Shown in pieces: positions 2,748 to 45,225 of a stretch of 64,000 nucleotides of DNA (the stretch's first letter is position 1; each line of letters begins with the position of its first letter). The notes under the pieces were generated by a model, which saw nothing but the letters and a program-made list of their open reading frames with translations, ran no database searches and was not told where the DNA came from. This DNA is from Gammaproteobacteria bacterium (lineage in GTDB: Bacteria > Pseudomonadota > Gammaproteobacteria > GRL18), in the NCBI GenBank assembly GCA_015488755.1, contig WFNB01000005.1, positions 1 to 64,000 on the forward strand, written 5' to 3'. A program made the translations under genes and the position numbers.

Positions 2748-2823
<76 letters not shown>

Positions 2824-2949
2824 TAATAATTATTCTGAATATCAAATCAAACCATTCAAGACTATAAAGTTCATATCTGTATATCCTCATAGTGTTATGT
2901 TAATATAATACAGTGTCAAATATTTTAATTTTTAGGTTGTCAGCAAAAA

Positions 2950-4332
2950 ATGATGGTTAGAATCTTTAAACATTATATTCCCTTTCGTCTAGTTCTTGTT
3001 TCCATTCTTGAGGCTGCGACATTTTTCTCATCAATTCCAATCGCCAGATTTTTAAACCAGAGTGACAGTACTCCGGTTGATTATATTTTCTATATTGCTT
3101 TTGCTTATACCTTAGTCACTATTTTTTCGATGGCTGCTGTTGGTTTATATAGCCGTAGTCTGCATGAAGATTTTAAGCGCTTAGTCTTTAGACTATTGCT
3201 TCTTATGGTTGTTGTTGTCATTTTAATGAGCTTTTTGTTTTATTTATTACCTATTTTATTTATGACAAGAACAACATTTATATATGCTTTGATGTTGTCT
3301 GGCAGTGCCTTGGTTGTGGTAAGGACATTATTATTTATTTCCATTGATAGAGAATACTTTAAGCAAAATATTATTGTTTTTGGTGCGGGGAAAAAGGCTA
3401 AGCAGCTTAACGAAATGCATAGAAAGCTTGATACTAAGACAATAAAAATTGTTGGTTTTTTACCTATTGAAACCGAAGAGGTTCTTATTGAACAGTCTCA
3501 ATTGATTTCATTGCCTGATACTTTATTAGAGTATGTTGTCACTAATAATATTGATGAAATTATTGTTGCCATTGATGATCGTAGAAAAAGATTTCCAGTG
3601 GATGATGTTTTAGAGTGCAAAGTAAATGGCACACAGGTTTTGGATGTATCCACATTCTTTGAACGCCAAACAGGTCGGATCACACTGAATGCCTTACATC
3701 CAAGTAACCTTATATTTTCAGATGGATTTATTCAGAATAATTTCTATCAGTTGCTAAAACGTCTCTTTGATATTATGGCATCTTTAATTTTACTTATGGT
3801 GACATGGCCTGTGATGATTATTACAGCATTAGCTATTATGATTGAGTCTGGCTTTAAGGGTACTATATTATATAAGCAAGTTAGAGTTGGATTATACAAT
3901 GAAAACTTTGAAGTGTTTAAGTTTCGTAGTATGGGTATGGATGCAGAAAAAAATGGTGCTCAATGGGCTCAGAAAGTTGATGCTAGGGTAACAAAAGTGG
4001 GTGAAATTATTCGTAAATATCGGATAGATGAATTGCCACAATTGTTCAATGTTATTAAGGGTGAAATGAGCTTTGTCGGGCCGCGACCTGAGCGTCCTGA
4101 ATTTGTAAAAGAACTTTCAGAAAAAATAAAATTTTATGAAATAAGGCACTATATTAAACCGGGCATTACTGGGTGGGCTCAAATTTGTTATCCCTACGGC
4201 GCTAATGAGGAAGATTCCCGTAATAAATTAGAATATGATCTGTACTATATGAAAAACTTTTCTATTTTTCTTGATGTTATGATACTTTTACAGACCATAC
4301 AGGTGGTCGTTTGGCGGCAGGGATCTAGATAA
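2950..4332 (+). CDS. Polyprenyl-phosphate sugar phosphotransferase (XrtA/PEP-CTERM EPS type)
   Basis: This enzyme starts repeat-unit synthesis by moving a sugar-1-phosphate from a nucleotide sugar to undecaprenyl phosphate. The N-terminal half has four to five membrane helices and a CoA-binding-like domain (IIVFGAGKKAKQL near residue 140). A further hydrophobic segment (about 275-300) precedes the catalytic sugar-transferase domain with KFRSM, DELPQLFNVIKGEMSFVGPR, ERPEF and PGITGWAQI. Length (460 aa) and position next to prsK fit the sugar transferase typical of XrtA/PEP-CTERM loci. It follows tRNA-Thr by 126 bp and precedes prsK by 21 bp. Which sugar is transferred cannot be read from the sequence. 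Confidence 0.92.
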   Translation: MMVRIFKHYIPFRLVLVSILEAATFFSSIPIARFLNQSDSTPVDYIFYIAFAYTLVTIFSMAAVGLYSRSLHEDFKRLVFRLLLLMVVVVILMSFLFYLLPILFMTRTTFIYALMLSGSALVVVRTLLFISIDREYFKQNIIVFGAGKKAKQLNEMHRKLDTKTIKIVGFLPIETEEVLIEQSQLISLPDTLLEYVVTNNIDEIIVAIDDRRKRFPVDDVLECKVNGTQVLDVSTFFERQTGRITLNALHPSNLIFSDGFIQNNFYQLLKRLFDIMASLILLMVTWPVMIITALAIMIESGFKGTILYKQVRVGLYNENFEVFKFRSMGMDAEKNGAQWAQKVDARVTKVGEIIRKYRIDELPQLFNVIKGEMSFVGPRPERPEFVKELSEKIKFYEIRHYIKPGITGWAQICYPYGANEEDSRNKLEYDLYYMKNFSIFLDVMILLQTIQVVVWRQGSR

Positions 4333-35128: not shown

Positions 35129-35186
35129 CAAAATGAATAGCAAAAAATTGTCATGAACGGTTTTAAAGTGATTTTTATGTTATTTA

Positions 35187-35369
35187 ACCTGAACTCTGGA
35201 TAAGATGCTCTTGAAAATAACTTCAGAGCGTTGATTCGCCTGTATTTGTGGAAGAAGTCTCTTTGGCATGGATGCCAAAGTGAAGCCTACAAGGATGTAT
35301 TAACGGCGACTTCTGTAACAAATACAGGCTAATTAATACGTTACTAGTTCAGTTATCCAGAAATCAGCT
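35187..35369 (+). mobile_element. 183-bp palindromic MITE-like element, copy 1
   Basis: A non-coding element with terminal inverted repeats (left ACCTGAACTCTGGATAA; the right end is the imperfect reverse complement) flanked by TATTTA at 35181-35186 and 35370-35375, apparently a target duplication. Inside, GCCTGTATTTGT/ACAAATACAGGC (35238-35249 and 35318-35329) form a second perfect inverted repeat. The centre is the hairpin TTTGGCAT-GG-ATGCCAAA. It is 183 bp, the same length as the copy at 41813 and about 94% identical by hand alignment. Its right end supplies the first base of the stop codon of the acyltransferase gene. No transposase is encoded. Confidence 0.85.
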
Positions 35370-36481
35370 TATTTAGGTGCTTGTAGTAGTTTCCTGCCGA
35401 TATTAATAAAGGGTTTTTCTATGTACTGATAAGATAAAGAAGCGCTGATATAGGTAGCAATAAGAGTTAATGATAAGGTCATTATCACTCGTAATAGTGG
35501 CTCAGTGATAGAAAAATGAATAATCAATAGTACCGAGCAGGCGACAAAAATATTATGATATAAATAGGTGCTATAGGATATCGTGCCATAGTGTTTAAGA
35601 AACTCTTCAAAGCGTGAGTGTACATCAACTTTAGTATAGAGCACGATCAAGACTGCTAGAATAGCACTGGCACCATAGGAGACCCAAATATTGGATAATA
35701 ACGGAATATCGGGCAGTTGAATATAAGAATTACTGAGGCATGAGACATAAATGGTTAATAAAATGAGTATAAATAGACCGGATGAGGGGGCTATTTTAAG
35801 ATGATAGTGCTTATAAATATAACCTACCAGAACACCGCCACAAAAACTGAAGGCAAGCGTAAAAAAACGATCATGAGCAAAGTGAATAATAGTTAGACGC
35901 GGTACGAGAAAGAGTATGGCACCGATAATAATGGGCCCTATGATGCCCATGCGTTTAATAGAATAAATAATAAGAGGGAATATCAGATAATACTGAAATT
36001 CTACCGGTAAACTCCAATAAGCATTATTAAATAATCCCTGTGACCCAGTGATATTAAAGGTAAAGCTTAAATAGGAAAGAATATCATAACTAGAATAGTC
36101 TTGGAGAAATTGATTTTCAACCCAATGCCCTTGTGCATTGGGATAGTAATATGAAAAGATAAATCCAAAGAGAATATAACAAATAAGTGAAATAACAAAG
36201 GCTGGCCATATTCTAAAGAAGCGTTTAATATAAAAATGAGTAATGCCCTTTTGTGCGAGCTTATCAACATTACTGATATACAGTGTACAACCACTAAGAG
36301 CAAAAAATAACACCACGCCAAAGCTACCCAAATCAAATAAAGACAGGATAAATAGATGACTTGCCTGATCGGTGCTGCTGTATTGCACCTCTGTCGCTCG
36401 AATCGTGTGAGAGATAATGACAAAAAAGGCCGCAATACCTCTTAGCCAAGTTAATTGCTCGATATAAGTTTTATTTACCAT
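35369..36481 (-). CDS. Membrane acyltransferase (acyltransferase family 3, OafA-like)
   Basis: A multi-pass enzyme that moves acetyl or other acyl groups onto sugars across the inner membrane. Characteristic signs are LTWLRGIAAFFVIISHTIRA near the N-terminus (catalytic H in ISH), the R/G-rich FFALSGCTLYISN, FYIKRFFRIWPAFV, and NNAYWSLPVEFQYYL. About ten membrane helices are visible over 370 aa. It overlaps the SGNH hydrolase gene by 11 bases. The final codons and stop fall in the duplicated target of the 183-bp element, so the native C-terminus may have been slightly longer. Confidence 0.9.
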   Translation of the reverse strand: MVNKTYIEQLTWLRGIAAFFVIISHTIRATEVQYSSTDQASHLFILSLFDLGSFGVVLFFALSGCTLYISNVDKLAQKGITHFYIKRFFRIWPAFVISLICYILFGFIFSYYYPNAQGHWVENQFLQDYSSYDILSYLSFTFNITGSQGLFNNAYWSLPVEFQYYLIFPLIIYSIKRMGIIGPIIIGAILFLVPRLTIIHFAHDRFFTLAFSFCGGVLVGYIYKHYHLKIAPSSGLFILILLTIYVSCLSNSYIQLPDIPLLSNIWVSYGASAILAVLIVLYTKVDVHSRFEEFLKHYGTISYSTYLYHNIFVACSVLLIIHFSITEPLLRVIMTLSLTLIATYISASLSYQYIEKPFINIGRKLLQAPK

Positions 36482-40480: not shown

Positions 40481-41809
40481 ATGCCAAAAATACTTATCTT
40501 AATTGGTGCCACCTTAATTTTGGGCAGTGTATTGCCTTTTATTTATGGTGCGCACTGGGCTTTTTGCCTATATGAATTTATTTATTTTCTCAACCCCGAA
40601 CATCGGTGGTGGTATTTTTATGTGCCGAGTATCCCTTATTCAAAAATATCTGTTATTATTTTATTGCTTATGTTTATGCTTAAATTTAAGCAACTACAAA
40701 AAAACAAGCTAATTAAAATCCCTCAATTTAAGTGGTTTGTTATGCTACTTATTACCTATGCCTCGGTGTCTTCTTATGCGTTGGCACCAGAAATACATGA
40801 AGAGGCGCTGGTTAACTACTTTAAGCTATTTGTTATTATGAGCATAGCCTATAAAGTTCTGGATTCACAAAACAAATTAGAGTGGGCATTGTTGGCCTAT
40901 ATCGTGGGTTGCACCTATATAGGCTATGAAGCGCACGCAGTGGGTCGAAATTCAGGTGACCGAGTGGAAGGTATTGGTCTGATTGATGCACCAGATTCTA
41001 ATGGTGTCTCAGCGGCCATTGCCCCCGTGATCCCTTTTTTAATTTATTATTTCTGGCTGGGCTCTAAAAAAGTAAAACTAATGATTACTATTGCCGGTGC
41101 TTTGATTGTCAATGGTATCGTATTAATTAATAGTCGAGGTGCTTTCTTAGGTGCTGCGGTGAGTGGGCTGTATTTTATGTGGGAAATGTATACTTCTAAG
41201 ATCAAAGTCAGTCATCAAAAATTAATGGTTATCTTTTTACTTATTATGGGAGTGCTGGCCTTATTGGTGGTTATGGACAATGCCTTTATTGATCGAATGT
41301 TGACCTTGACCGAAGTGGAAGATGAAGAAAAAAGTGGTTCTCACCGCTATCATATGTGGTTAACAACCTTTGATATGATGCGAGATTACCCTTGGGGGGT
41401 CGGTGCCTATGGATATAATTTATTGAGCCCGCAATACGTTGATCAGTCACTTTTCGGCAAAGGTCAAATTTACAAATCTGTCCACTCCCTTTGGTTTCAA
41501 GCCCTGTATGAAGTGGGCTGGCATGGTTTCTTCTTTTTTATGATGATCATCTTTACAACATTAAAAATGGCTTATAAAACAAGAGCGATATGTAAAAAAA
41601 GACAGGATATAAGACAATATTACCTAGCCCATGCCTTACTCTGTTCTTTTTTAGGCATGTTAACAGCCTCGACCTTTATTAATCAATTTCGGGTGCAGAT
41701 TGTCTATTGGTCAATACTTTTTATTGCTTGTTTCTATAGCATTGTCCGCAATCAAGAAAACTCAGAGGCAACACTTAAGGAAAGTAGTGCAAGTAAGCTA
41801 CCTCCCTAA
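40481..41809 (+). CDS. Exosortase A-associated O-ligase/polymerase (WaaL/Wzy type)
   Basis: A 442-residue protein with about eleven membrane helices. The N-terminal YEFIYFLNPEHRWWYFYVPS resembles the start of the exosortase-A-associated probable O-glycosylation ligase (TIGR03097). A large periplasmic loop carries RMLTLTEVEDEEKSGSHRYH and VHSLWFQALYEVGWHGFFFF, the H-S-x-W/F and arginine features of Wzy/WaaL enzymes. It could polymerise repeat units or ligate glycan to a sorted protein. Its TAA stop is inside the duplicated target site of the second 183-bp element. Confidence 0.87.
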   Translation: MPKILILIGATLILGSVLPFIYGAHWAFCLYEFIYFLNPEHRWWYFYVPSIPYSKISVIILLLMFMLKFKQLQKNKLIKIPQFKWFVMLLITYASVSSYALAPEIHEEALVNYFKLFVIMSIAYKVLDSQNKLEWALLAYIVGCTYIGYEAHAVGRNSGDRVEGIGLIDAPDSNGVSAAIAPVIPFLIYYFWLGSKKVKLMITIAGALIVNGIVLINSRGAFLGAAVSGLYFMWEMYTSKIKVSHQKLMVIFLLIMGVLALLVVMDNAFIDRMLTLTEVEDEEKSGSHRYHMWLTTFDMMRDYPWGVGAYGYNLLSPQYVDQSLFGKGQIYKSVHSLWFQALYEVGWHGFFFFMMIIFTTLKMAYKTRAICKKRQDIRQYYLAHALLCSFLGMLTASTFINQFRVQIVYWSILFIACFYSIVRNQENSEATLKESSASKLPP

Positions 41810-41812
41810 GTA

Positions 41813-41995
41813 ACCTGAACTCTGGATAAGATGATCTTGAAAATAAATTCAGAGTGTCGATTAGCCTGTATTTGTGGAAGAAGTCTCTTTTGCATGGATG
41901 CCAAAGTGAAGCCTACAAGGATGTATTAACGGCGACTTCTGTAACAAATATAGGCTAATCAATACGTTATTAGTTCAGTTATCCAGAACTCAGGT
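41813..41995 (+). mobile_element. 183-bp palindromic MITE-like element, copy 2
   Basis: Ungapped alignment by hand with the copy at 35187 shows about 11 differences in 183 bp, in the same orientation. Terminal inverted repeats are ACCTGAACTCTGGATAA and the reverse complement of TTATCCAGAACTCAGGT (two mismatches). TAAGTA flanks it at 41807-41812 and 41996-42001. Both flanking hexamers in the family have the form TA-N2-TA. The left duplication contains the stop codon of the O-ligase gene, which therefore remains intact. Confidence 0.85.
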
Positions 41996-42037
41996 TAAGT
42001 AGTAAAAAGTAATAGAAGTGCTATTGGCGTTGGGGGG

Positions 42038-44925: not shown

Positions 44926-44956
44926 AGTTATTGTGTAATAGTTATTGTGTAATAGT
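44924..44956. repeat. 14-bp tandem repeat, 2.4 copies, upstream of the deacetylase gene
   Basis: ATAGTTATTGTGTA occurs at 44924-44937 and 44938-44951 without change, then ATAGT begins a third copy. It touches the start codon of the minus-strand deacetylase gene, so it forms its 5' leader, and it ends at the left flank of the third palindromic element. Confidence 0.8.
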
Positions 44957-44960
44957 GGTT

Positions 44961-45113
44961 CATGAGTAGGTACTTGAGGATAACTCTGTGTTTACGGAGG
45001 AAGTTTTTGCCACATGGATGTGGCAATAAAGCCTCCATGGATGGATTTACGGCGTCTTGCGTAGTAAATACAGAGTTATCCGGCATTCAAAAGTGCTTAA
45101 GCACCTGCCTATG
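44961..45113. mobile_element. 153-bp palindromic MITE-like element, copy 3 (divergent subtype)
   Basis: AATAGTGGTT flanks it at 44951-44960 and 45114-45123, a candidate 10-bp target duplication. Ends are imperfect inverted repeats (CATGAGTAGGTACTT against the reverse complement of the right end, 11 of 15). An inner inverted repeat GGATAACTCTGTGTTTA/TAAATACAGAGTTATCC (44978-44994, 45065-45081) has one mismatch. The centre has hairpin TTGCCACAT-GG-ATGTGGCAA and the tract AAGCCT...GGATG...ACGGCG seen in the 183-bp copies, but the ends differ. The rest of the 267-bp gap to the next gene shows no gene. Confidence 0.75.
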
Positions 45114-45225
45114 AATAGTGGTTAGCTAATTAATAGCTTGTGTAAGCGTATATTTTTCTTTTTATGAATGCTTATGTTAATGTTGTCAGTCATTGATTCT
45201 AACCCCTATTTTTTTGGTGTACAAG

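Follow-up and report, generated by a model that had tools for sequence, protein, structure and literature searches.

The window, that is, the whole stretch of 64,000 nucleotides analyzed here, harbors two copies of a short element, termed F1, and one copy of a second element, F2 (Table 1). Both F1 copies are 183 bp long and, when aligned pairwise, differ at 11 of 183 positions, which is precisely the length, and matches the approximate number of differences, given in an initial annotation of this DNA; no ORF of 90 or more amino acids is contained in the element. The borders TATTTA and TAAGTA, recorded there as 6-bp direct repeats of the form TA-N2-TA, are indeed present at both copies and agree with the consensus TANNTA of the copies in the host genome. 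The imperfect inverted ends are 17 bp long with two to three mismatches; at copy 2, the right end reads ACCTGAGTTCTGGATAA on the opposite strand and pairs with the left end ACCTGAACTCTGGATAA. Both the RNA cargo of these elements and the second core-bearing family, whose copy in the window lies upstream of an ORF starting at 45193, had been overlooked.

Table 1. Positions of the F1 and F2 elements and of their parts in the window.
Feature	Positions	Strand	Remarks
F1 mini-transposon, copy 1	35187..35369	+	183 bp
F1 copy 1, left target duplication TATTTA	35181..35186	.	
F1 copy 1, left terminal inverted repeat ACCTGAACTCTGGATAA	35187..35203	+	
F1 copy 1, right terminal inverted repeat AGCTGATTTCTGGATAA	35353..35369	-	
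F1 copy 1, right target duplication TATTTA	35370..35375	.	overlaps stop codon of gene 36481-35369 (-)
F1 copy 1, TwoAYGGAY-type RNA core	35245..35322	+	model R1, 100.5 bits; covariation shown
F1 copy 1, hairpin 1, loop region CAUGGAUG	35259..35280	+	
F1 copy 1, hairpin 2, UACAAGGAUGUA	35288..35299	+	CsrA SELEX UACARGGAUGU matched 11/11
F1 mini-transposon, copy 2	41813..41995	+	183 bp
F1 copy 2, left target duplication TAAGTA	41807..41812	.	holds stop TAA of gene 40481-41809 (+)
F1 copy 2, TwoAYGGAY-type RNA core	41871..41948	+	model R1, 94 bits
F1 copy 2, right target duplication TAAGTA	41996..42001	.	
F2 mini-transposon, window copy	44961..45113	+	ends CATGAGTAGGTACTT / CCTATG, unrelated to F1; same RNA core
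F2 window copy, left 10-bp target duplication AATAGTGGTT	44951..44960	.	
F2 window copy, TwoAYGGAY-type RNA core	44991..45068	+	model R1, 89.1 bits
F2 window copy, right 10-bp target duplication AATAGTGGTT	45114..45123	.	

Copies, target duplications and mobility of F1

In the host genome (3.5 Mb in 122 contigs), at least 41 BLAST matches to F1 were obtained, and 40 distinct copies were aligned together with their flanks. The flanks were complete for 38 copies and identical over 6–7 bp in 33 of these (30 exact 6-bp and three exact 7-bp repeats). When, as a control, left and right flanks were taken from different copies, the 6-bp repeat matched in 124 of 1,406 such mismatched pairs (8.8%), compared with 30 of the 38 true pairs (p = 6e-25). 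Outside the duplications, the sequences of different copies are unrelated (mean identity 28–29%), and homology ends at the borders that had been annotated. A 183-bp relative of F1 in a congener (G003, L120:1442-1624) is placed between two copies of TAATTTA, whereas the orthologous stretch in another congener (G011, L148) is uninterrupted and contains a single TAATTTA site, which makes it the empty counterpart; this occupied/empty pair, with its 7-bp duplication, comes from congeners and not from the window copies. The flanking TA may also be counted into the inverted repeat, an ambiguity of the border that leaves the empty-site reading unchanged. Because F1 is multicopy, has defined ends and exact duplications, and is represented by an occupied/empty pair in congeners, its classification as a MITE with 6-bp (sometimes 7-bp) TANNTA duplications is supported. 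The MITE-like nature and the spread proposed in the initial annotation are thus borne out, as are the further copies (at least 40 in the host) and, at one congener locus, an empty site of the kind that it had envisaged in relatives, but a transposase gene bearing F1 ends was not found in the searches given below. That F1 elements are real mobile elements carrying a conserved RNA cargo is near certain.

Short F1 derivatives that lack the core but retain two good ends exist at three loci (L052, L053, and L054), so the core seems not to be needed for mobility. In another variant (L034, L036-L040), 26–29 nt (CCCGAAGGAAGTACTCTTGGGG) are inserted 3′ of hairpin 2, and a similar insert was seen in congener G011 (L108); considering the 26-nt insert a third GGA loop was rejected, since the likely fold puts its GGA inside a stem or at the end of one.

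An IS982 origin of F1 was discarded, given that PF13612 has no match in the host, and F1 is therefore not filed as IS982-type. ISNCY_2 transposases (NF033594) gave one strong match (in G005) and otherwise weak ones, and none of them has an F1 terminal inverted repeat beside it within four mismatches. No full partner lies within about 3 kb of the unpaired F1 repeats; an autonomous F1 was dismissed after the neighborhoods of 29 unpaired or orphan repeats had yielded nothing but deletion derivatives, chimeras, and further MITEs. Carriage by a plasmid or phage was likewise dropped, for which no blastn match was obtained.

No host copy of F1 is located inside a predicted gene (0 of 40), the gene contexts being convergent in 14, tandem in 20, and divergent in 4 cases. 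A stop codon and the target site overlap at 15 of the 39 copies, including both in the window, whereas among control TANNTA sites this is so for 21 of 528. When the flanks were rejoined, 2 of 39 copies showed an ORF of at least 100 amino acids extending across the target site, so a few F1 insertions may have interrupted a reading frame.

A TwoAYGGAY-type RNA core

The central 78 nt of F1 are a TwoAYGGAY-type (RF01731) structured RNA. In an Rfam scan of copy 1, the one match was to this family (35210-35358, 37 bits), and both window copies score at most 37 bits, under the gathering score of 43; sister copies exceed it, four in the host with 43.5–44.6 bits and one with 47.5 bits. Matches to Ysr224 (antisense) and to plant microRNAs were weak, far under the cut-off, and were read as chance. 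Of the earlier statement that the element belongs to no named family, the part on transposons stands, as no transposon name was found, but the tract CATGGATG...ACGGCG, which had merely seemed familiar, is the TwoAYGGAY core. A covariance model of 78 positions (R1), trained on 11 cores drawn from several families, recognized at least 118 host cores among 150 scored candidates, whereas RF01731 gave 33 matches at E up to 1, four of them past the cut-off; the Rfam model misses most of the family.

The fold of F1 has a z-score of −7.4, and none of 200 shuffled sequences folded equally well. The fold comprises a stem and a lower stem (GAAG/CTTC), followed by hairpin 1 (CAUGGAUG) and, across the linker AAGCC, by hairpin 2 (UACAAGGAUGUA) and then ACGGC. 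The loop of hairpin 1 (AUGGAU) conforms to AYGGAY, whereas that of hairpin 2 (AAGGAU) differs at position 2. Compensatory changes were observed in 13 of 25 pairs in the 11 training cores of R1. When 109 cores from many species were compared, 95.4% of the cells paired and 777 cells had changed on both sides, but pairing dropped to 31–46% when the partners were slid by one to three columns, slid controls staying at or below 49% throughout; covariation is present in every helix of the 78-nt core. Hairpin 1 shows 2 changes over 22 sites in 39 F1 copies, and private changes in F1 are fewer there than in the arms (2 versus 40, p = 0.003). The F2 core has no shortage of private changes, and purifying selection on single copies was abandoned as a general claim because it was seen in hairpin 1 of F1 but not in F2.

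In other genomes, the core is often found atop stems of 15–30 bp (in G330, L186-L190; in G326, L181-L185; and at L245-L324) that retain their pairing although each locus has a sequence of its own. Among 88 loci from many species, 84 possess a stem of this sort beyond the R1 model (58 sequence clusters); arms taken from different loci reached the same score in 39 of 496 combinations. Among the mismatches on the GGA strand of these 84 outer stems, G-U outnumbers A-C (61 versus 17, p = 6e-7), as is the case for the F1 stems (79 versus 47, p = 0.006) but not for the F2 stems, which have no G-U excess (61 versus 74). A palindrome in DNA would produce no G-U/A-C asymmetry, which argues that selection acts on the sense RNA; the core likely functions as RNA and not as DNA. 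One orthologous pair (L157/L216), with flanks 94% identical, an arm that seems far more diverged, and the core inverted, fits drift of the stem under a pairing constraint, a point that a single pair does not settle.

Other carriers and distribution of the core

F2 elements of the host are about 152 bp long, with ends CATACGTAGGTACTTAAGG. Of 39 copies, 22 are bordered by exact 10-bp target duplications, and most others have one- or few-base mismatches or cut ends. The F2 ends presumably resemble those of IS4/IS231-type elements, for which duplications of about 10–12 bp and an IS231-like transposase would be expected, compared with the 10 bp seen at the 22 copies. In one chimera (L066), an F2 core is enclosed by F1 ends and TATTTA duplications; cores thus pass between F1 and F2, probably via nesting and deletion. 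A third element type occurs twice (L049, about 3190-3460; L068, reverse strand, about 2750-3010), with ends like ACTACTCAGCAA ... TTGCTGAATAGT and its own version of the core with two GGA hairpins, and in congeners the core resides in further ends, for example, GGGACAGATCAAA. The same core within different ends, together with the F1/F2 chimera, demonstrates that it has been captured by several unrelated mini-transposon families.

Other arrangements were encountered as well. F2-type cores are located at contig ends of the host (G000 C29, C77, C43, C82, and C87), and for this reason the repeats are probably what breaks its assembly. In genome G565 (L370:2800-4300), six tandem repeats of 227 bp each contain a core and a GTAG-type palindrome (GTAGGAGCGGCTTCAGCCGCGA), which we take to be REP-like. 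Divergent pairs of cores, about 80–250 bp apart, were seen at seven loci (L292, L306, L302, L246, L265, L318, and L317) in Marinobacter, Halomonas, Stenotrophomonas, Saccharospirillum, and others. At five loci of Methylocucumis oryzae (L264, L287, L308, L313, and L324), the right arm of the stem is swapped for a shared, unrelated sequence (ctgctcctgcgttgcc...).

As judged with R1, 21 of the 24 genomes of the host's family contain the core, as do 71 of the 369 genomes sampled from its class; in a wider sample of the phylum, all 30 positive genomes belong to the same class. Carriers among the matches listed include Marinobacter, Thioalkalivibrio, Ectothiorhodospira, Stenotrophomonas, Methylocucumis, Alcanivorax, Halomonas, and Thermomonas.

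Candidate function of the core

The SELEX consensus for CsrA is RUACARGGAUGU, with GGA presented in hairpin loops (PMC4347634), and binding of CsrA by TwoAYGGAY was predicted from its motif in 2015 (PMC4333381). Hairpin 2 of F1 (CUACAAGGAUGU) matches the consensus at 11 of 12 positions, and hairpin 1 (GCAUGGAUGC) carries GGA. Each of the 36 cores detected with the model instead of a pattern presents GGA in its two loops, a conservation that is partly built in because R1 weights GGA; 26 of these 36 agree with UACARGGAUGU in hairpin 2 at no fewer than 9 of 11 positions. A single CsrA gene, canonical in sequence, is present in the host. Among high-quality genomes of the class, 58 of the 59 that carry the core have CsrA, compared with 222 of the 255 that lack the core (p = 0.009), an association that is weak because CsrA-less genomes are often small and that both genome size and lifestyle confound. 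Five of the 71 core-bearing genomes gave no CsrA match, among them one that is 98% complete (G218). Judged from these sequences, CsrA is the probable protein partner of the core RNA, and a function of the copies as a sponge or as distributed CsrA sites is plausible.

The explanation we favor, with a probability of about 0.58, is that F1 is a nonautonomous MITE with TwoAYGGAY cargo, the dispersed sense RNA copies of which bind CsrA as sites or as a sponge. The element inserts at TA-rich TANNTA sites and duplicates 6–7 bp, as the copies, their duplications, and the congener pair show, and its cargo is, as the covariation shows, a stem topped by two hairpins with loops presenting GGA. If the core is transcribed from the sense strand, its paired GGA hairpins would most likely bind a CsrA dimer, and the dispersed copies could jointly act as CsrA-binding sites or a distributed sponge, shifting Csr regulation; the core is modular, and the several unrelated mini-transposon families that have captured it spread it. 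The main weakness of the sponge is the likely antisense read-through together with the lack of a promoter consensus. Neither a promoter nor a terminator consensus was found in the F1 element region, and F1 RNA is not oriented with its neighboring genes (9 versus 11 in tandem contexts), so read-through would often yield antisense. A stop codon close to F1 more often faces the 3′ side of the RNA.

Were F1 a plain MITE, its inner hairpins would be ballast or aid transposition at the DNA level and have no role as RNA. Palindromic MITEs are common, no promoter was found, and F2 lacks both the G-U excess and the reduced number of private changes, all of which would agree with such an element; nevertheless, this explanation is improbable in light of the same core being present in unrelated mini-transposons and in stand-alone stems, the compensatory changes throughout it, the strand-asymmetric tolerance of G-U, and the match to an RNA family that was assembled from distant taxa. 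We also regard it as unlikely that the core is a transcript-end or mRNA-stability structure at gene 3′ ends, with GGA loops that serve folding or are recognized by some protein that is not CsrA. The intergenic position of all 40 F1 copies (4 between divergent genes), the overlap with stop codons in excess of control sites, and the long stable stems speak for it, but T-run terminators are absent from the window F1 copy, a plain terminator has no need of two invariant GGA loops, and F1 is not biased in its orientation. Least credible, and indeed very improbable, is that the core RNA serves the mobility of the element, being bound by the transposase or acting as a guide or as a regulator of transposition: despite its retention in several mobile families, it is missing from the three F1 derivatives with two good ends and occurs in stand-alone stems without transposon ends, and F1 and F2, which must use different transposases (duplications of 6–7 versus 10 bp), have it in common.

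Extending the favored CsrA-binding explanation to the class, the RNA module, on unrelated transposons and with dozens to more than 100 copies per genome, might be a mobile sponge that titrates CsrA, with settled loci keeping only the pairing and having obtained a long stem of their own by a process that forms or corrects palindromes; this is offered tentatively, as a conjecture more apt to fail than to hold. To our knowledge, TwoAYGGAY is an RNA family without known function. As the cargo of unrelated mini-transposons, with at least 118 cores per genome in the host and in about one-fifth of the sampled genomes of the class, its function becomes directly testable, and such mobile cargo would tie selfish DNA to a global post-transcriptional regulator. 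Carriage of TwoAYGGAY by mobile elements was found nowhere in the literature searched, whereas binding of CsrA had already been predicted in 2015. No earlier report of such carriage was found in the largely open-access literature searched on CsrA in combination with MITEs, sponges, or transposon-derived RNA; the passages found on TwoAYGGAY make no mention of transposons, and the 2010 main text contains nothing on transposons or copy number for it (PMC2864571).

Like TwoAYGGAY as described (RF01731; Weinberg et al, 2010, PMC2864571), the core has two hairpins that share a stem and end in AYGGAY-type loops, the conserved AAGCC between them, and ACGGCG after them, and sister copies pass the gathering score; the window copies differ in remaining under it and in the AAGGAU of hairpin 2. 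With the small RNAs that sequester CsrA/RsmA (CsrB/C and RsmX/Y/Z), it has in common several hairpins with GGA loops, CsrA being its predicted partner, but it consists of two GGA hairpins on one long stem, is dispersed in dozens of mobile copies, and has no visible promoter or terminator. REP/BIME elements moved by RAYT are likewise dispersed, extragenic hairpins, and the G565 array includes a GTAG-type palindrome, but F1 and F2 are set apart by genuine terminal inverted repeats and by target duplications. In these respects, F1 corresponds to MITEs with IS ends, which are short, noncoding, and multicopy, with inverted repeats and target duplications; it differs from them by a conserved, covarying RNA that is common to unrelated MITE families.
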